A DNA stretch of 64,000 nt from Actinoplanes palleronii (GTDB lineage Bacteria > Actinomycetota > Actinomycetes > Mycobacteriales > Micromonosporaceae), in NCBI RefSeq assembly GCF_016862315.1, contig NZ_BOMS01000009.1, positions 1-64,000 on the forward strand, in the 5' to 3' direction. Below the pieces are notes generated by a model. It was not told the origin of the DNA. It saw only the letters and a list, made by a program, of their open reading frames with translations, and ran no database searches. Positions 3,884 to 40,818 of this stretch are shown here, in pieces (the stretch's first letter is position 1; every line of letters starts with the position of its first letter). The position numbers and the translations under genes were made by a program.

Positions 3884-3985
3884 CGCGATCGCCTCCTCCG
3901 GGCCGTCCGGCCCTGTCCTCTGACGTTCTCACGCGTGAGGGGCCGGGTTAGGGTTTGCCGCAAGATCGGGTGAACGGGAGCGCGA

Positions 3986-4465
3986 ATGACCGAGCGGGAG
4001 ACGCTGACCTGGGACGGTTTCGGCCGGGTGGGGCGGGAACTGGCGCAGGCGATCGCCGACGACGGGTTCCGGCCGGATCTGATCCTGGCGGTGGCCCGGG
4101 GCGGTCTGCTGGCCGCCGGGTCGATCAGCTACGCCCTCGACGTGAAGCGGGTGCACCTGATCAACGTCGAGTTCTACACCGGGGTCGACCAGCGGCTGGA
4201 CGTGCCGGTGCTGCTGTCCCCGGTCCCGGACGCGGGTGACCTGGACGGCGCGAGCGTGCTGATCGTCGACGACGTGGCCGACACCGGCGCGACGCTGAAG
4301 CTGGTCCGCGACTTCTGCGCCGGGCACGCGGCCACCGTGCGCACCGCGGTGATCTACGAGAAGCCGCACTCCGAGGTGCGGTGCGAATACGTCTGGGCCC
4401 GCACCGACAAGTGGATCAATTTCCCCTGGTCGAGCGAGCCTGCGGTCACCGCGGCGCCGGTCTGA
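3986..4465 (+). CDS. Type I phosphoribosyltransferase
   Basis: The 159-residue enzyme has the type I PRTase fold. The PRPP-binding loop is VLIVDDVADTGATLK (residues 91-105) with the Asp-Asp pair, and an earlier AVARGGLLAAGSISYAL segment supplies the PPi loop. Length and layout match the short hypoxanthine/xanthine-guanine phosphoribosyltransferases, so purine salvage (base + PRPP to nucleotide + PPi) is the likely reaction; the base specificity is not visible. It is monocistronic, divergent from the PilZ gene and convergent with the 63-residue gene at 4469. Confidence 0.85.
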   Translation: MTERETLTWDGFGRVGRELAQAIADDGFRPDLILAVARGGLLAAGSISYALDVKRVHLINVEFYTGVDQRLDVPVLLSPVPDAGDLDGASVLIVDDVADTGATLKLVRDFCAGHAATVRTAVIYEKPHSEVRCEYVWARTDKWINFPWSSEPAVTAAPV

Positions 4466-4468
4466 CGA

Positions 4469-4660
4469 TCAGGCGTCGCCGGACTTCTGCTCCGGTGCCT
4501 TCGCCATCAGCGCGTCGAGGTCCAGCTGCAGGGTGGAGAGCAGCCCGCCGTGCTTCTGGGTGTCGACGTCGTCGGGCAGTTGCTTGTCGACGAAATCCGC
4601 GCGGTGCGACAGGCCACGACCACGGAGTTCGGACAGGATGAGGTGCTTCGGAATGATCAT
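4469..4660 (-). CDS. Small protein of unknown function (63 aa)
   Basis: I do not recognise this gene. It encodes 63 residues starting MIIPKHL. The frame stays open upstream to 4771, but the upstream part reads as arginine-rich non-coding translation, so the ATG at 4660 was preferred. The product is soluble, with no signal peptide or membrane span, and has an acidic middle with PDDVD. It ends 3 nt after the convergent phosphoribosyltransferase stop. Confidence 0.45.
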   Translation of the reverse strand: MIIPKHLILSELRGRGLSHRADFVDKQLPDDVDTQKHGGLLSTLQLDLDALMAKAPEQKSGDA

Positions 4661-4774
4661 TTCGATGGTGCCTTTCCGACGATCGCGAAGCGCAACGCCG
4701 GCGCGCCGCGGAAAATGCGTGCCAAAACCAAGGCGGGCCGAAACTAGCACGTATCCCGGTTCGGCGCTCAATTG

Positions 4775-6373
4775 TCAACCAGGTGGCAGCATTCTTTCCT
4801 CATGGTCCAGCTCGCGTTCCAGCACCCGCAGGCCGGCGTCCGGCAGCCGGCCGGCGTCGCGCCAGCGCAGCAGTTCCTCCCGCTGCGCGTCGATGGTGAC
4901 GTGCCGCAGCCAGGCGCGGGTCTCGTAGCCCTCGGTATGACCCTCGATCTCCGCGCCGGCGGTCCGCAGCGACTCGATCCGGCCCTCGTACCGGCGTAAC
5001 CGGACCTGCAGCGCCTCCCGCATCTGCGCGATCTGCCGCGGGTCGAGCTCCGGTTCCTGGGCGCCGAGCTCGCCCAGCCGGATCAGGGCGGCGTGCACCG
5101 ACGCCGAGCGCGCCTCGTTGCGCAGCGCCGCCTGGTCGTCCGGGCTGGCGTGCAACCCGAGCAGGCGCACCAGCGGGGCGAGCGTCAGGCCCTGCCCGAG
5201 CAGGGTGACCAGCACCGCGGTCAGGGTGCAGAACACCAGCAGGTCGCGCAGCGGGAACGGCGAACCGTCCACGGTGGTCAGCGGCACGGCCAGCACGGCC
5301 GCCAGGCTGATCACCCCGCGGGTGCCGGTCCAACTGAGCGCGATCACCTCGCGGCCGGTGAGTGCGCCGGAACGCCAGCCGAGCCGGGCCGGCAGGGTGT
5401 GCGTGGCGAGCAGCCACAGTGGCCGGGACACCAGGACCACCCCGACGGTGACCGCCACGGCCGGGAGGATGACAGCCGCGTCGTACTGCCGCAGGTCACG
5501 CAGGATGGCCGGCAGCTGCTGGCCGATCAGCAGGAAGACCATGCCCTCCAGCAGGAAGTCGACGAGCCGCCAGACGGCGCTGGTCTGCAACCGGCTCGCG
5601 CCGGAGGCCCACCGCGGCGCGTCGTGCCCGACGATCAGCCCGGTCACCACGACCGCCAGCACGCCGGAGACGCCCGCCCACTCGGCCAACAGGTACGCGG
5701 CGAACGGCGTGGCCAGCGAGATCGCGTTGGCGGTGAGCGGGTCCCGGGCCAGGTGGCGCAGCCGGCGCACGCCGTACGCGACGAGCGCGCCGGCCACGAT
5801 CCCACCGGCCGCGGCGAGCAGGAGCCGGCCCAGCGCGGCCGGTCCGGAGAACCCGTGCCCGGCCGCCGCGGTGATCGCGACGCTGAGCAGGGTCAGCGCG
5901 GTGGCGTCGTTGAGCAGCCCCTCCCCCTGGATCACGGTGACCAACCGGACCGGCAGCCCGGACCGGCGGGCGACCCCGAGCGCGACGCCCGGGTCGTGCG
6001 GCGCCACCGCCGCGCCGATCGTCACCCCGGCCGCGAGGGTCGCCCCGCCGACGAACCAGGCGAACCCGGCGCCGATCGTCAACGCGGTGATCAGCACCAG
6101 CAGCACGGAGAGCCCGATCACGGTGACCAGGTAACGGCGGATCGCCAGCAGCGAGGAGTCCAGCGCCGCGCTGTAGAGCAGCGGCGGGATCAGGTAGGTC
6201 AGCACGAACTCGGGGTTGAGGACGACGTTCTGGCCGGGCAGCAGGGAGTAGCCGATGCCGGCCAGGGTGAGCAGGGCGGCGGAGGGCAGGCCGGTGCGTT
6301 CGGCGACCCAGCGCACCATCACCAGCACGACGAAGCCGGCAAGGACGAAAGTCAGTAACCGCTCGTGGCTCAC
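4775..6373 (-). CDS. Na+/H+ antiporter, CPA1 family
   Basis: An inner-membrane monovalent cation/proton antiporter of 532 residues. About 12 hydrophobic segments fill residues 5-400, followed by a charged cytoplasmic tail of about 130 residues with helical character. CPA1 signatures are present: APHDPGVALGVARRSGLP, the EGLLNDATAL segment carrying the Asn-Asp pair typical of electroneutral CPA1 exchangers, and the late SWTGTRGVISLAAVLAVP helix. The GTG at 6373 was chosen because GGGAG lies 9 nt upstream; the frame continues 17 codons further. It probably exports Na+ in pH or salt homeostasis. It is monocistronic and divergent from the next gene. Confidence 0.9.
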   Translation of the reverse strand: MSHERLLTFVLAGFVVLVMVRWVAERTGLPSAALLTLAGIGYSLLPGQNVVLNPEFVLTYLIPPLLYSAALDSSLLAIRRYLVTVIGLSVLLVLITALTIGAGFAWFVGGATLAAGVTIGAAVAPHDPGVALGVARRSGLPVRLVTVIQGEGLLNDATALTLLSVAITAAAGHGFSGPAALGRLLLAAAGGIVAGALVAYGVRRLRHLARDPLTANAISLATPFAAYLLAEWAGVSGVLAVVVTGLIVGHDAPRWASGASRLQTSAVWRLVDFLLEGMVFLLIGQQLPAILRDLRQYDAAVILPAVAVTVGVVLVSRPLWLLATHTLPARLGWRSGALTGREVIALSWTGTRGVISLAAVLAVPLTTVDGSPFPLRDLLVFCTLTAVLVTLLGQGLTLAPLVRLLGLHASPDDQAALRNEARSASVHAALIRLGELGAQEPELDPRQIAQMREALQVRLRRYEGRIESLRTAGAEIEGHTEGYETRAWLRHVTIDAQREELLRWRDAGRLPDAGLRVLERELDHEERMLPPG

Positions 6374-32211: not shown

Positions 32212-35200
32212 GTGCTGCACGAGGAACCCGGCACCATCCGTACCCGGGCCGCGAGCCTGACCGAATATCTCCTCGCGGTGCGGGCGCAGATGGAGAAGCC
32301 GACCCGGACCGTGCCGGCCGAGGCCCGGGTGTGGCAGCACCAGCTGCCCGCGCATCCGCAGTGCCGGCTCGGGCCGCAGGGCGACGAGGCCGCCTGGCTG
32401 CAGGTCGGACGGCCGCCGAAGGTGCGGGCGCTGGAACCGCCCCGGCGCCTCGCCGAGGCGCTGCGGGAGCCGGTCGTCGCGGATCAGGAGCCGGTCTTCC
32501 GGGCGCCGCCCGGCGTGGACCCGGACCGGGCCGCCGCACTGGAGACCGAGGTCGCGGAGTGGCGTGAGCGGGTCTGGCGGCCGTGGGCGGCCGAGACCCG
32601 GCCGGTGGACGCGACCCGGGAGCTGCACGCCCGGCTGAGCGAGATGCGCAGCCGGCTGGACATGAACACCGCGGCCGAGGAACTCGTCTGGGGGCACGGG
32701 GTCGTCCACCTGACCGTCGCCGATCAGCGGGTCGCCTATCCGCTGCTGGTCACGCCGGTGACAATCGACTACGACGCGGACCTCTCGGTGGTCAGCGTGT
32801 CGCCGCAGGGGCCGCCCCGGCTGCAGACCGACGCGCTGATCGGCATCGACGACCGGCACCTGCGCCAGCTGCTCGCGCTCGGCGACGGCGGCCTGGTCAG
32901 CGTCGACCTCTGGGACGACCTGGAGCGCCGGGAGCTGTTCGAGCGGGCGCTGCGCCGGCTGGGCCACGACCCGGTGCTGCGCGACGCCACCGGGCCGGCC
33001 GTCGACGGGCCGCACGTGCACGACACCGGGGTGCTGTTCGTCCGCCCCCGGCAGCGGATGCTGCGGCGCTTCCTGGAGCAGCTGCGGGACCGGCTCGCGG
33101 CCGGTGACCTGAACAGCGTCGGCGCGCTGGCCTCGATCGTCGCGCACGAACCGAGCCGGTTGGCGATGCCCGGCGACGAGCCGGAACGCTGGAAACCGGT
33201 CGGTGGGCGGCTGCTGATGCCGCTGCCGACGAACGAGGCGCAGGAGTCGATCGCGCGCCGGCTGGCCGGCAACCGGAACGTCGCGGTGCAGGGTCCGCCC
33301 GGCACCGGCAAGACGCACACCATCCGGAACCTGATCTCGCACCTGATGGCGCACGGCAAGCGGGTCCTGGTGGTGGCGCAGAAGGAGGATCCGCTGCGGG
33401 TGCTGCGCGACGGGCTGCCGGCCGAGATCCGGGCGCTGTGCCTCGCCGTGCTGGGCCGCTCCGCCGACCAGCTGACCCAGTTGCAGCACGCGGCCCGGGA
33501 GCTGTCCGACCGGGCGGCGACGCTGGACCAGCACCGGGAGCAGCAGCGGATCGACGCGCTGACCGGTCAGGTGGAGGAGACCGAGCGGGAGCTGGGCCGG
33601 GCGCTCGCGGCGTTGCGGTCGATCGCCGAGAACGACGCGCGCACCTACCGCATCGACGGCGCCCCGCTGAGCCCCGCGGACGTGGGTGAGTGGCTGGTGG
33701 CGCGGGAGGCCGCGTTCGGCGACATCCCGGACGCCGTACCGGAGGATCAGCCGCCGCCGCTGAGCGCCGACGAGTTCGCGCAGTTGCTGCGGCTGGCGGC
33801 GACGCTGGATCCGGCTGACCGCGTACAAGCGAAAAGACATCTGCCGCCGGCCGCGGAACTGCCGCAAGCAGCGGCGATGCTCGCGAATCGGCGCCGGCAG
33901 GCGGCACTTGCCGCGGACCTCGCGGCGCTGGCGGACGCCGGGGTGCACCTCGCCGCGGTCCGTCGGTCCGGTCCGGACGGGTTGTCGCAGCTCACCCGGC
34001 GGTTGCACGACACCGTGGGGCTGTTGCGGCGGCGCGAGGGCGCGTGGGTGGACCGGCTCGGGCGGCAGCTGGCCGACCCGCAGTGGGCACAGCAGTGGCA
34101 GCAGCACGTCGCCGGGTGCCAGGCCGCGCTGGTGCAGCTGGCCGAGGCCGCCGGCGCGATCGGCGGGCACACCGTGACCGTTCCGGACAGCCACCTCGGG
34201 CAGCCCCGGCAGTTGCAGGCCGAGTTGGCCGAGCTGCGGCAGCGGTTCGCCGCCGGCAAGGGGGTGAGCCGGGTCTTCCAGAGCGGGCTGGCCCGGCTCG
34301 CCGCGGAGTGCCTGGTGGACGGCGAGCCGTTGCGCACCGCCGACGACGTCGTTCTGGTGATCGCCTACGTGACCCGGGTCCAGGTCCGGAGCCAGCTGGC
34401 CGGGCGGTGGACCGACTGGGCGCAGTGGCTGCACATCCCGGCCGATCAGTTCACCGGGTTCCCGGAGCTGTGGGCGAGCGGGCTGATCGAGCAGGCCCGG
34501 ATCGCGGTGCGGTGGGACCACGACGAGTGGCCCGCGCTCTACGACGAGTTGCGGCTGGTGCTGCCTCAGCTGGAGCCCCGGGCCGAGAGCGCGGTGCTGG
34601 CGCAGGCGGCCGAGCTGCTGGGCCGGGTCGCGGTGCTGTTCGAGCACGATCACCTGACCGAGACGGATCAGCGGATCGTGGCCTACCTGCAGGACGGCAT
34701 GTCGCAGCCCGACGCCAGCGACCTGTGGCGGCTGCTCGACATGCAGTGGCAGGACGCCGACCTGGCCGGTTGGGACGGCACGTGCGCGGAGATCCGCCGG
34801 CTGGCCGCGCTGCGCCCGGACGCGCTGGCGTACACGGAATTCTCCGCGCGGCTCGGCGCCGCGGCGCCGACCTGGACCGCGGAGATCGGCGCGGGAACCG
34901 CGGCCGCCCTGCACGGCAGCGGAGCCGACTGCCTGCAACGATGGCGGTGGCGGCAGGCGCAGACCTGGTTCGACGAGGTGATCGGCGACCTGGACGTCGA
35001 GACGCTGGGCCGGCGGGTGGAGCGGGCCCGGCAGGCGATCCGGCAGCTCACCCACGAGCTGGTCGTCGCGTCCACGTGGCTGGCCGTCTCCCGCGCGCTC
35101 GACGACCGGAAACGCGCGGCGCTCGCCGACTGGGCCACCTCGCTCCGCAAGATCGGCAAGGGTACCGGGAAGAAGGCCTCGCACTGGCAGGCCGAGGCGC

Positions 35201-36519
35201 AGCGGCAGATGTCGGCGGCGGTCGACGCCGTGCCGGTCTGGGTCATGTCGATCGACCGGGCGATCGAGCAGTTCGCCGGCGGCGCGCGCTTCGACGTGAT
35301 CATCGTGGACGAGGCGTCGCAGGCCGACATGTTCGCGCTGCCGGTGCTGAGCCTGGCCGAACGCGCCGTGGTGGTCGGCGACGACCAGCAGATCGGCCCG
35401 CAACTGACGTTCCTCGGCGACGTGCAGGGCCTGATCGAGGCGCACCTGCCGGACGTGCCGTCGGCGAACCAGTTCGACCCGGAGGGCAGCCTCTACGACC
35501 ACGCGGTGCGCCGCTCCGAGCGGATCCTGCTGACCGAGCACTTCCGCTGCGTGCCGCAGATCATCGAGTTCTCCAGCGCCACCTACTACGAACACCGGAT
35601 CGAACCGTTGCGCACCGATCGACCGGCCGGGATCGGTGAGCCGGTGCGCGCGGTGCACGTACCGGACGGGACGCGGCAGGCGATCGCCGCCTTCGGCGAC
35701 GTCAATGTCGCGGAGGCGGAAAGGTTGCTGACCCAGGTCCAGACGATCGTCGAGGATCCGGCGTACGACGGGAAGAGCCTCGGCGTGATCAGCCTGCTCA
35801 GCGGCAGCGACCAGGGGATGTATCTCCTGCAACGGCTGCAGGCCACGATCGGGCTGGAGGAGATGGAGCGGCGGCGGCTGCGGGTCGGCGACTCGTACAC
35901 GTTCCAGGGCGACGAGCGGGACGTGGTGCTGCTGTCGACGGTGGTGTCCGCGAACGACGGGCGGATCGCGGCGTTCACCAAGCGCGACTACCACCGGCGG
36001 ATCAACGTGGCGGCGTCCCGGGCCCGCGACCAGCTGTGGGTGTTCCACTCGTTCCAGCCCGGTGACGTGCCGGGCGACGACGCGCGCGGGCAGCTGCTGA
36101 CGTACTGCCAGAACGTGGGGACGGCGACCGAGTCGTACGGCGACCTGGAACAGCGCTGTGACAGCGACTTCGAGCGGGCGGTGCTGAAACGGATGCTGCT
36201 GCGCGGGCTGCGGCCGCTGCCCCAGTTCAAGATCGGCAGCTATCGGATCGACTTCGTCCTCCCGACGGGTGACGGGCGGCGGCTGGCGATCGAGTGCGAC
36301 GGAGACGCGTATCACGGGCCGGACCGCTGGGAGGACGACATCCGGCGCCAGGCGCTGCTGGAGCGGGTGGGCAACTGCGTTTTCGTACGGATCAGGGGCA
36401 GTGTCTTCAGCCGTGACCCGGAGAAGGCGCTCGCGCCGTTGTGGCGGCGGATCGAGGAGATGGGTGGGGTAGCTATCGTCCCTTTTAGCACGTCAACGGC
36501 CGACCAGCGCGTACGTTAA
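32212..36519 (+). CDS. SF1 DNA/RNA helicase with C-terminal DUF559 nuclease domain
   Basis: A 1435-residue protein. After a 300-residue N-terminal region comes an SF1 (Dna2/Upf1-like) helicase: Walker A GPPGTGKT (361-368), a long coiled insertion (about 420-950), Walker B VDEASQAD (Asp1033), GDDQQIGPQ, EHFRC, a QGDERDVVLLS motif V and NVAASRARDQLW. Residues about 1325-1430 form a PD-(D/E)XK-like DUF559/Vsr domain with Asp1347 and Glu1361-x-Asp1363 (IECDGDAYHG). GTG start; AAGGAG lies 10 nt upstream. Helicase-nuclease fusions of this type are common in phage-defence loci, but no partner gene is adjacent, so it would have to act alone. Confidence 0.85.
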   Translation: MLHEEPGTIRTRAASLTEYLLAVRAQMEKPTRTVPAEARVWQHQLPAHPQCRLGPQGDEAAWLQVGRPPKVRALEPPRRLAEALREPVVADQEPVFRAPPGVDPDRAAALETEVAEWRERVWRPWAAETRPVDATRELHARLSEMRSRLDMNTAAEELVWGHGVVHLTVADQRVAYPLLVTPVTIDYDADLSVVSVSPQGPPRLQTDALIGIDDRHLRQLLALGDGGLVSVDLWDDLERRELFERALRRLGHDPVLRDATGPAVDGPHVHDTGVLFVRPRQRMLRRFLEQLRDRLAAGDLNSVGALASIVAHEPSRLAMPGDEPERWKPVGGRLLMPLPTNEAQESIARRLAGNRNVAVQGPPGTGKTHTIRNLISHLMAHGKRVLVVAQKEDPLRVLRDGLPAEIRALCLAVLGRSADQLTQLQHAARELSDRAATLDQHREQQRIDALTGQVEETERELGRALAALRSIAENDARTYRIDGAPLSPADVGEWLVAREAAFGDIPDAVPEDQPPPLSADEFAQLLRLAATLDPADRVQAKRHLPPAAELPQAAAMLANRRRQAALAADLAALADAGVHLAAVRRSGPDGLSQLTRRLHDTVGLLRRREGAWVDRLGRQLADPQWAQQWQQHVAGCQAALVQLAEAAGAIGGHTVTVPDSHLGQPRQLQAELAELRQRFAAGKGVSRVFQSGLARLAAECLVDGEPLRTADDVVLVIAYVTRVQVRSQLAGRWTDWAQWLHIPADQFTGFPELWASGLIEQARIAVRWDHDEWPALYDELRLVLPQLEPRAESAVLAQAAELLGRVAVLFEHDHLTETDQRIVAYLQDGMSQPDASDLWRLLDMQWQDADLAGWDGTCAEIRRLAALRPDALAYTEFSARLGAAAPTWTAEIGAGTAAALHGSGADCLQRWRWRQAQTWFDEVIGDLDVETLGRRVERARQAIRQLTHELVVASTWLAVSRALDDRKRAALADWATSLRKIGKGTGKKASHWQAEAQRQMSAAVDAVPVWVMSIDRAIEQFAGGARFDVIIVDEASQADMFALPVLSLAERAVVVGDDQQIGPQLTFLGDVQGLIEAHLPDVPSANQFDPEGSLYDHAVRRSERILLTEHFRCVPQIIEFSSATYYEHRIEPLRTDRPAGIGEPVRAVHVPDGTRQAIAAFGDVNVAEAERLLTQVQTIVEDPAYDGKSLGVISLLSGSDQGMYLLQRLQATIGLEEMERRRLRVGDSYTFQGDERDVVLLSTVVSANDGRIAAFTKRDYHRRINVAASRARDQLWVFHSFQPGDVPGDDARGQLLTYCQNVGTATESYGDLEQRCDSDFERAVLKRMLLRGLRPLPQFKIGSYRIDFVLPTGDGRRLAIECDGDAYHGPDRWEDDIRRQALLERVGNCVFVRIRGSVFSRDPEKALAPLWRRIEEMGGVAIVPFSTSTADQRVR

Positions 36520-38935: not shown

Positions 38936-39074
38936 TTCTTCGTCTCCTCTGAGTGCCAGCCATTCCGCCGGATCGCCATCAACGTAGTGACTCACGGCAG
39001 TCCGTGTGATCACGGATTCGCGCCATCCCGGTCAGCCCTTGTCGCGGGCACCTGGTCGTGCGTACAGTTGTCGC

Positions 39075-39959
39075 ATGTCACCCATCCCTGGGGATTGCGG
39101 TCCCGGCGCTGCCCCGGCGCGAGATTACGACGGCTTGTACAAGGCGCTGATGGAGGCGCATCCGAAGGACGCTTTGCGGCTCCTGTGCCGAGTCGAGGTC
39201 GGCGATCACACGGTGGTCGCCGACGGGCCGACCGAGCAGGTCCGGCAGCGCAGCCTGCAGCGCGACAAGGTGTTCATGGTGTCCCGGCCGGACGGCACAG
39301 TCGACGTGCACCACATCGAAGTGCAGGTGAAGCGGACCGGCGATTTCCCGGCACGGATGGCGGCGTATTGGGCGGGACTGGCCATCAAATACGAGGATCC
39401 CCGTCACCAGATCCATCAGACCGCGGTGTGGCCGGTCGGTGGCGGTAGTCCCGGATCCCTCCGGCGGAACCGTATGCACCTGGAATGGGACTCGGTGAAC
39501 GTCCCGGACGACCTCGACCCGGATGCCCTGCTGGCGAGTCCGCTCGCCCCGCTCGTGCTGTGGTCGAGCCGGCGGCCGGCCGATTTCGCCGACCGGATCG
39601 GCGGGCGGATCGGCGAGCTGCCGAACCGCGAGCAACAGTTGGTTCTCGTCGACCTTTGTATGCTGGCCGAGGAAGGTCTCGCAGCTCAGGTCGTCACTGC
39701 GTTGAGGAGCAGAGGAATGGGCAACGTTCTCGAAGGAACAGAAGCCGGCCGTGAGATCGCCCAGAAAAACCTGAACCGAGGCCTCGAACAAGGCCTCGAA
39801 CAAGGCCTGGTGCGCTCGATGCGCCTGCTGCTGCAGACCCGGTTCGGTGACATCCCCGACCTGGACGACCTGGCAAGGAAACTCGTGGCGGAAGACCACG
39901 ACGCCAACATGGTGAAAGTCGTCAGCGGAGTCCCCCTGACCGAACTTCAACAACTCTGA
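39075..39959 (+). CDS. Rpn-like PD-(D/E)XK nuclease (large form)
   Basis: A 294-residue protein of the Rpn/transposase-like nuclease type. Residues 1-210 form the nuclease domain, with Asp in LQRDKVFMV, then HHIEVQVKRTGDFPARMAAYW giving the E-x-Q variant of the D...ExK motif. Residues 215-294 form a helical tail with a GLEQGLEQGL linker coded by a 12-bp repeat. An internal ATG at 39717 (Met215) has GAGGAG exactly 7 nt upstream and would yield the tail alone (80 aa). In E. coli, Rpn large forms are toxic DNases with antiphage activity, restrained by intragenic small forms. A near-copy of the tail is encoded again at 40005. Confidence 0.8.
   Translation: MSPIPGDCGPGAAPARDYDGLYKALMEAHPKDALRLLCRVEVGDHTVVADGPTEQVRQRSLQRDKVFMVSRPDGTVDVHHIEVQVKRTGDFPARMAAYWAGLAIKYEDPRHQIHQTAVWPVGGGSPGSLRRNRMHLEWDSVNVPDDLDPDALLASPLAPLVLWSSRRPADFADRIGGRIGELPNREQQLVLVDLCMLAEEGLAAQVVTALRSRGMGNVLEGTEAGREIAQKNLNRGLEQGLEQGLVRSMRLLLQTRFGDIPDLDDLARKLVAEDHDANMVKVVSGVPLTELQQL
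39717..39959 (+). CDS. Candidate intragenic small Rpn product (80 aa)
   Basis: In-frame internal start within the Rpn-like gene: ATG at 39717 preceded by GAGGAG with 7-nt spacing and by AGAGGA directly. The product would be the 80-residue C-terminal helical domain beginning MGNVLEGTEAGREIAQK. The same ribosome-binding sequence and start are kept in the neighbouring duplicate gene, where this small protein is the only possible product, supporting use of the internal start here. By analogy with E. coli RpnS it may bind and inhibit the large form. Expression is inferred, not shown. Confidence 0.55.
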   Translation: MGNVLEGTEAGREIAQKNLNRGLEQGLEQGLVRSMRLLLQTRFGDIPDLDDLARKLVAEDHDANMVKVVSGVPLTELQQL

Positions 39960-39988
39960 TCACAAAGTCACCGTCGATCAGCGCGACC

Positions 39989-40271
39989 GTAGAGGAGCAG
40001 AGGGATGGGCAACTTCCTCGAAGAAACGGAAGCCGGCCGTGAAATCGCCCAGAAATACCTGGAGCGAGGCATCAAAGAAGGCCTCAAGCAACAATTTGAG
40101 CAAGGCTACAAACAGAGTCTCGTGCGCTCAATGCGCCTGGTGCTGCAGACCCGGTTCGGTGACATCCCCGGCCTGGATGAGCTCGCCGCCGCCCTCGTGG
40201 CCGCGGACCATGACGCCAACCTGGTCAGAGTCGTCAACGGAGTGCCGCTGGACCAACTCCAGCAGCCTTGA
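39989..40271 (+). repeat. Tandem partial duplication of the Rpn 3' end
   Basis: 39989-40271 is a diverged copy of 39701-39959, beginning at GTTGAGGAGCAGAGG / GTAGAGGAGCAGAGG and running to the stop codons. It differs by a 24-bp insertion in the linker. The large gene's Leu210 codon TTG aligns with TAG (39990-39992) in the copy, five codons before its ATG, so the copy cannot be read from further upstream. Homology upstream of the ribosome-binding site is not evident. Confidence 0.85.
40005..40271 (+). CDS. Stand-alone small Rpn-like protein (88 aa)
   Basis: An 88-residue helical protein nearly matching the C-terminal 80 residues of the Rpn-like nuclease: both start MGN-LE-TEAGREIAQK and share LVRSMRL-LQTRFGDIP, then a VA-DHDAN segment ending in VPL--LQQ. 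The copy has eight extra linker residues (EQGYKQSL region). GAGGAG lies 7 nt before the ATG. It starts 45 bp after the nuclease stop, so the two are probably cotranscribed. It could be a second, separately encoded antitoxin, or the remnant of a paralogue that lost its nuclease part; the conserved ribosome-binding site favours a live gene. Confidence 0.75.
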   Translation: MGNFLEETEAGREIAQKYLERGIKEGLKQQFEQGYKQSLVRSMRLVLQTRFGDIPGLDELAAALVAADHDANLVRVVNGVPLDQLQQP

Positions 40272-40350: not shown

Positions 40351-40818
40351 CTAACTCTCCTCGGCCACTGCCACCGGCTCGACGGCCAACTCGCCGTCCC
40401 AGGCGAACGCCAGGTCAGTGGCTTCGCCGCTGACCGTCACGCCGTCGGTCGACGCCAGCGCGGTCTGGACCTTGCGCCATTTGGCAGCGAACCGCTTGCG
40501 TTCCACACCCAGATCGACGAGATACGTCGCGATCTGGCCGCGGGTCATCGGCGTGCCGTTCTCTCCCAGCACCCGCAGCACGATCCCCAACGGATCGGCC
40601 TCGAAATCGGCGCGCACCGCTTCGGCATCAACGAACGATGCGAACCGCAGCGAGTCACGCGGGGCCAGAAGTTCGTACTCGCCGGGCTTGATCTCTTCCT
40701 CGGCTCCGTCGTCCCACCGGACCAGATAGAGCTCTCCCTCTTGCGTCAGGACGGTACCGACCCTGATCGGCCTGCCAGGCAGGTAGGGGACTCGAACAAC
40801 GCTCAAATCATGCTCCAC
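40351..40818 (-). CDS. Protein of unknown function (155 aa)
   Basis: I do not recognise the family. The N-terminal half (about 1-60) has a small-beta-barrel pattern (VGTVLTQEGELYLVRWDDGAEEEI), like Tudor/KOW-type folds. Residues about 75-140 look like a winged-helix (MTRGQIATYLVDLGVERKRFAAKWRKVQTAL). This suggests nucleic-acid binding, which is inference from pattern only. There is no signal peptide. It lies on the same strand as, and 113 bp downstream of, the diguanylate cyclase gene. Confidence 0.6.
   Translation of the reverse strand: MEHDLSVVRVPYLPGRPIRVGTVLTQEGELYLVRWDDGAEEEIKPGEYELLAPRDSLRFASFVDAEAVRADFEADPLGIVLRVLGENGTPMTRGQIATYLVDLGVERKRFAAKWRKVQTALASTDGVTVSGEATDLAFAWDGELAVEPVAVAEES

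Follow-up and report, generated by a model that had tools for sequence, protein, structure and literature searches.

A divergent Rpn-type gene of Actinoplanes palleronii with an internal start, and the stand-alone copies of its tail module in the genus

When a small gene that repeats the tail of a toxin gene lies directly behind it, does it provide a second antitoxin, and does it mark a step in the separation of an antitoxin from the gene that contains it? The question is raised by a locus of Actinoplanes palleronii (genome of 11.2 Mb in 234 contigs) located in the stretch of DNA analyzed here, referred to as the window, which comprises the first 64,000 nucleotides of contig NZ_BOMS01000009.1. 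The first-pass annotation of this stretch described an Rpn-like nuclease gene with an internal small-form start, followed by a diverged copy of the small form alone, and proposed that the antitoxin exists twice, a possible step in the split of an intragenic antitoxin into a separate one. Its coordinates and motifs, including both open reading frames, both GAGGAG sites at 7 nt spacing and the TAG codon, were all confirmed (Table 1). The window contains two instances of AGGAGNNGAGGNATG, and 100 shuffles contain none. The genome encodes one more large form, 80% identical, on a different contig.

Table 1. Features of the rpn locus, in window positions.
Feature	Position	Strand	Details
Likely promoter of the large gene	39039..39074	+	TTGTCG, 18 nt, TACAGT, 6 nt, ATG; no Shine-Dalgarno (SD) site
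Large form, Rpn-type PD-(D/E)XK nuclease, 294 aa	39075..39959	+	ATG 39075, TGA 39957-39959
Internal SD site GAGGAG	39704..39709	+	7 nt spacing to ATG 39717
Embedded small form, 80 residues	39717..39959	+	In-frame ATG within the large gene
Four-residue units of the embedded module	39771..39806	+	LNRG LEQG LEQG; module core length 32
In-frame TAG	39990..39992	+	Five codons 5′ of the stand-alone ATG
SD site GAGGAG of the stand-alone gene	39992..39997	+	7 nt spacing to ATG 40005
Stand-alone small form, 88 aa	40005..40271	+	Homologous to large-form residues 215-293
Five four-residue units of the stand-alone module	40059..40118	+	LERG IKEG LKQQ FEQG YKQS; core length 40

The large gene and its family

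The product of the large gene is, judging from its invariant catalytic residues and the four-residue variation of its tail, a divergent Rpn-type nuclease of Actinoplanes, as the first-pass annotation had supposed. The window protein itself scores 16.7 bits against the Rpn model TIGR01784 (COG5464), below the cut-off of 52.1, while the model matches all 28 aligned large proteins at E≤0.1 (best 9.3e-9). Residues D64, E82, Q84 and R94 are invariant in these 28 proteins, which were picked as full-length matches and all keep the tail module. They correspond to D63, E82, Q84 and R94 of E. coli RpnA, with which the family also shares an internal start for a small form. As described by Kingston 2017 (PMC5350276), the RpnA mutants D63A, E82A and Q84K lost all three phenotypes, and Q84A and R94A lost recombination while keeping toxicity. 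The window tail (80 aa) is longer than that of RpnA, and the available text of PMC5350276 and Zhong et al. 2023 mentions no stand-alone rpnA copy.

The Pfam search returned no family at E≤1 for either window protein, DUF4351 (PF14261) included, and the PADLOC search returned none for either at E≤0.01. Among the 28 members, PDDEXK_2 matches 13 (best 4.4e-4) and DUF2887 matches 10, with unrelated Pfam families scoring similarly, and FliH models match up to seven, presumably via charged repeats. A search of solved structures with the large-form alignment gave no match, and a further sequence search of solved structures gave one chance match, to a designed protein. The AF2 model of the large form (pLDDT 86.5) is best matched by EndoMS at Z 7.5, a value that does not stand alone; McrC, XisH and Card1 are also listed. 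We take these four to be PD-(D/E)XK proteins.

A tacagtTGtcgc/tacagttgacgc box directly 5′ of the large ATG is common to five other large genes (L006, L030, L031, L011 and L065). Large-gene starts in the window's clade have no SD site, whereas those in other clades do. Because the TACAGT box lies so close to the ATG and an SD site is absent, the toxin mRNA may be leaderless, with the small form translated from an SD-led start. A generic sigma-70 promoter scan of the region found no match.

In the genome collections searched, the family is patchy and restricted to the genus. Matches were found in 28 of 354 genomes, all within one of 44 genera, and a sample of the phylum yielded 1 match in 396 genomes, the window's own; all 23 named loci encoding relatives are from Actinoplanes or Paractinoplanes. 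A phage source was rejected: the phage collection contained no relative of the window small form at E≤0.01, and in viral_contigs 72 stretches matched a pattern with 0 confirmed. The E. coli YpaA protein matched seven phage-collection records. A plasmid source was likewise rejected, as the 1,197 bases of the locus had no plasmid match. The GC content is 0.652 in the large gene and 0.603 in the small gene against 0.717 in the window, in keeping with horizontal acquisition.

Two neighboring genes may be recorded here. A 155-aa ORF (40351-40818, minus strand) directly past the gene pair has nothing above cut-off in Pfam, NCBIfam or PADLOC. Less than 3 kb upstream of the Rpn gene, a helicase-like protein of 1,435 aa (32212-36519, plus strand) matches the PADLOC candidate defence model PDC-S37 (E 1.5e-46) as well as MkoC/MkoA models, so that this could be a defence neighbourhood.

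The internal start and the stand-alone gene

Evidence for the internal start from the window sequence alone is weak, since an SD site followed by ATG is common by chance: four instances of AGGAG, 4-8 nt and ATG were found in the window where 4.2 are expected, which is not unusual, and 2 of 36 rough gene models of the window, a set that excludes the large gene, contain an internal ATG in frame that is preceded by a 5-nt SD core. It is the comparison among relatives that makes the case strong. Of the 28 aligned large genes, 27 have Met at the internal start and the remaining one has Val, encoded by GTG. Codon conservation peaks at residues 212-216, which rank first among 289 windows (observed 0.84, expected 0.35). 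The two codons before Gly214 are AGG or AGA in 21 of 21 and 21 of 22 cases of Arg, as opposed to 39 of 857 at other positions of these genes, a bias whose binomial P is too small because the genes are related. From this pattern, the start at 39717 is under selection, in agreement with the embedded small form that had been annotated. A second peak of synonymous conservation lies just before the repeats, at residues 222-230 (39738-39764), and includes GREIA, encoded by GGC CGC GAG ATC GCC.

The stand-alone ORF lies on the large gene's strand, 45 nt past the toxin stop, with an SD site of its own. Its homology to the parent reaches no further than 17 nt 5′ of the ATG on one side and the stop codon on the other, and the two modules are 74% identical. 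In the module tree, the window large form, its paralogue and this copy form a group with 100% support. The codon model, our own implementation with tree and branch lengths from IQ-TREE, gives it an omega of 0.165, with 2dlnL against omega 1 of 14.2 and 14.0. The 16 cleanest stand-alone tips have an omega of 0.156, and fixing omega at 1 costs 143 in 2dlnL; the corresponding values are 0.149 and 39.1 for four copies that the tree places beside a module of their own genome, as its sister or nested with it. Where a copy arose by deletion, some of its branch is older than the deletion, so that omega may there reflect the parent. By the substitution pattern of its codons, then, the downstream ORF is a real coding gene kept by selection, and the dN/dS analysis suggested by the first-pass annotation bears it out as a gene.

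The RpnS fold, represented by RpnA-S (PDB 7TH0), is a three-helix bundle with a long first helix. The AF2 model of the 88-aa protein has three helices (residues 9-51, 57-77 and 82-85), the first of 43 residues. A structure search with the small form was uninformative (Z 4.2 at best), and 7TH0 was absent among its matches.

The arrangement of a nuclease gene followed by a small gene is known from E. coli and is not new. Stand-alone small genes behind rpnE (ypaA) and rpnC have been described in a preprint (Zhong et al. 2023, PMC10327210), whose available text covers the intragenic antitoxin and the repeats as well as RpnS genes that stand alone and have arisen independently. The window locus resembles rpnE/rpnES (ypaA) and rpnC/rpnCS in its internal start, in a stand-alone gene directly 3′ that is kin to its own parent, and in four-residue repeats in the first helix; unlike these systems, its sequences are distant. 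In K-12, ypaA exceeds the rpnE tail by one unit, whereas the window copy exceeds the embedded module by two; K-12 RpnE is inactive according to RefSeq, whereas the window nuclease retains its catalytic residues. K-12 ypaA (L122, 1017-1202) is a RefSeq pseudogene, yet its product has been detected after tagging, as reported in PMC10327210. The same source equates stand-alone DUF4351 (PF14261) proteins with RpnS; the window protein is likewise a small stand-alone Rpn tail, but unlike them has no Pfam match at E≤1. A literature search from which subscription journals were mostly absent returned no description of Actinoplanes Rpn genes or of nuclease-deleted rpn genes.

Stand-alone small genes elsewhere in the genus

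The tail modules were compared in a set of 53 from 24 genomes, comprising 28 intact large genes, 4 damaged ones and 21 stand-alone or nuclease-less copies. Kept apart from this set were broken, partial or ambiguous copies (L049, L052, L053, L055, L057, L058, L059, L060 and the second copy of L041), L114/L025, and the decayed fragments found downstream in L032 and L108; short matches in G015, G044 (C60), G045 and G027 (1843348) were also set aside. What is new here is that stand-alone small genes recur in the genus, in 21 copies, with deletions that remove the nuclease as a probable route to many of them. On the tree, where many nodes are weak, these copies lie scattered, with 18 parsimony changes against 16.7 in shuffles, and a single old family of stand-alone genes was rejected on that account. 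In 3 of the 24 genomes (G039, G048 and G063) stand-alone copies are present and no large gene has a module.

Seven of the 21 copies sit behind a large gene, so the tandem arrangement for which the first-pass annotation had suggested a search is present in relatives. One more, L054b, is the second of two small copies and follows L054a; at this locus (3976-4932) a nuclease fragment is followed by two successive stand-alone small ORFs whose repeat numbers are ten units apart. Twelve of the remaining 13 copies look like the products of internal deletions in which the nuclease was removed and the internal start kept, since they carry a piece of the large-gene front directly upstream; L041a is the one without. 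The front-piece matches reach E≤5e-11 in BLAST in 11 cases and 2e-4 in L040. In at least 10 of these 12 the piece also covers sequence 5′ of the large start, and homology to the large gene resumes 2-51 nt before the internal ATG. By our own reading of the loci, 12 internal deletions have their end no more than 17 codons from M215, as against 5 ending elsewhere (L051L, L055, L058, L059 and L060), giving P 2.7e-10 for 12 of 17 with uniform ends as the null; L021 and the second copy of L041 stand outside these counts. With L057 the figure is 12 of 18 (P 7.4e-10), and with the front-truncated L052, L053 and L063 added it is 12 of 21 (P 9.4e-9). A bias toward losing the nuclease and keeping the module was rejected as a statistical claim: our own count is 12 versus 1 (sign test P 0.0017), and P becomes 0.097 once domain length is weighed.

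A GGAG core precedes 18 of the 21 stand-alone starts, compared with 391 of 4990 ATGs of the loci; the SD site has been lost in L038, L047S and L051S. In L034 and L038 a residual leader ORF stops on the small-form ATG itself, as ATGA, an overlap that would allow coupled translation; L038 is without an SD site.

There is no sign in the genus sequences of a completed split. Were a stand-alone gene able to take over, an active large gene without the embedded module would be expected. A near-complete nuclease domain without such a module was seen once in the loci read, in L114, which occupies the same place as L025. Its motifs read HIVVQV for HIEVQV (E82 gone), CSGAF for RDKVF (D64 gone) and FQEWM for FQERM (R94 gone). 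As D64, E82 and R94 are lost, this single case is not one of an active toxin that has handed over its antitoxin, and the proposed step in such a split finds no support in the genus.

Repeat number and the partners of the stand-alone protein

As in known Rpn tails, the module tail varies in four-residue units. Of 53 modules, 52 have a core length divisible by four, with repeats beginning at about residue 19; repeats of variable number 8-20 residues after the small start, a feature of Rpn proteins, are thus found in the window family. In the window, the stand-alone module is two units longer than the embedded one. All eight pairs of large and small neighbors differ, by +2 (window), +1, -5, +3, +5, -3, +10 and -2 units, one of these large genes being damaged and one small copy lying upstream. 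Adding one unit to RpnC-S abolished its ability to counteract RpnC, and adding one to both proteins restored it, according to the text available of Zhong et al. 2023 (PMC10327210). If this one-repeat rule holds here, the 88-aa protein is not the antidote of the adjoining toxin. The claim that the antitoxin exists twice is therefore unproven.

We lean somewhat toward reading the locus as a divergent Rpn gene-within-gene toxin-antitoxin accompanied by a stand-alone RpnS-like gene that pairs poorly with the adjoining toxin, one of a kind that recurs in the genus. The large protein would cut DNA, as its fold and invariant catalytic residues suggest. By analogy with E. coli Rpn, the 80-residue protein would bind the tail shared with the large form and block it. 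Duplication of the tail module would have placed an RpnS-like gene behind the large gene, and its 88-residue product is, from the sequence, probably made and retained by selection. With a first helix two units longer, this product would pair poorly with its neighbor, and its partner would rather be another copy of itself or a large form whose length matches. Across the genus, such genes would have originated repeatedly, either through duplication of the tail or through deletions that removed the nuclease but spared the large-gene front and the internal start, leaving toxin-free, antitoxin-like genes whose specificity may drift from that of the parent.

A competing explanation is that repeat number hardly matters for binding and turns over neutrally, in which case the mismatch would say nothing about partners. 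Much in the counts is compatible with this, and we give it appreciable weight while judging it short of probable. Matches are close to chance expectation in both genera: 2 of 18 stand-alone copies match any large form of their own genome, with 3.0 expected, and E. coli rpnE/ypaA mismatches in 16 of 16 computed strains (11 combinations, 0 matches, 0.9 expected, P 0.32), with L127, the one of the 17 strains outside the computed set, mismatched by eye. Selection for or against equal repeat number was accordingly rejected as not significant in either Actinoplanes or E. coli. Of 13 pairs of embedded modules that share a genome, 12 differ, and two large genes of one genome with 94% DNA identity, L031 (core length 40) and L045L (28), are three units apart. 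As the mismatch is within chance, rapid repeat turnover accounts for it equally well; it is the repeat-swap experiment in E. coli, as far as PMC10327210 describes it, that speaks against binding being indifferent to repeat number.

The 88-aa protein could also neutralize the adjoining large form despite its longer helix and simply raise the antitoxin dose, as its placement and SD site, its identity to the embedded module and the occurrence of the same arrangement in E. coli would allow. The two extra units, where one abolished neutralization of RpnC, and the unmatched repeat numbers of neighbors make this rather unlikely. A duplicated cognate antitoxin is doubtful, and what deserves attention is the series of nuclease-free small genes together with the mismatch in repeats. 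We think it very improbable that the downstream copy is a functionless remnant, left when a tandem duplicate lost its nuclease part. Broken rpn copies are indeed frequent in the genus (for example L049, L052, L053, L057 and L059), and the first-pass annotation had named, as evidence against itself, relatives in which the downstream copy is a full-length decayed nuclease gene; this is borne out in part, as L045S and L048S do have nuclease-domain remnants just upstream, but the window copy has none. Its low omega, that of the four copies kin to modules of their own genomes, and the retention of the SD site in most stand-alone copies argue against decay.

A further idea, which we hold as speculative and improbable, is that the RpnS genes that stand alone make up a drifting bank of toxin-free antitoxins, cut loose by tail duplication or by a nuclease-removing deletion that spares the large-gene front and the internal start, and then shifted in repeat number, that would act against other Rpn alleles, incoming or carried by rivals, rather than against their own parent.

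These findings extend the idea of a gene-within-gene toxin-antitoxin to an actinomycete family whose window members are missed by Pfam and PADLOC, and place evolutionary evidence behind the internal start in the Actinoplanes Rpn family. They also provide a natural series of nuclease-deleted small genes, together with the prediction that partners of unequal repeat number would be non-cognate, which bears on the role of stand-alone RpnS genes, ypaA of E. coli among them.
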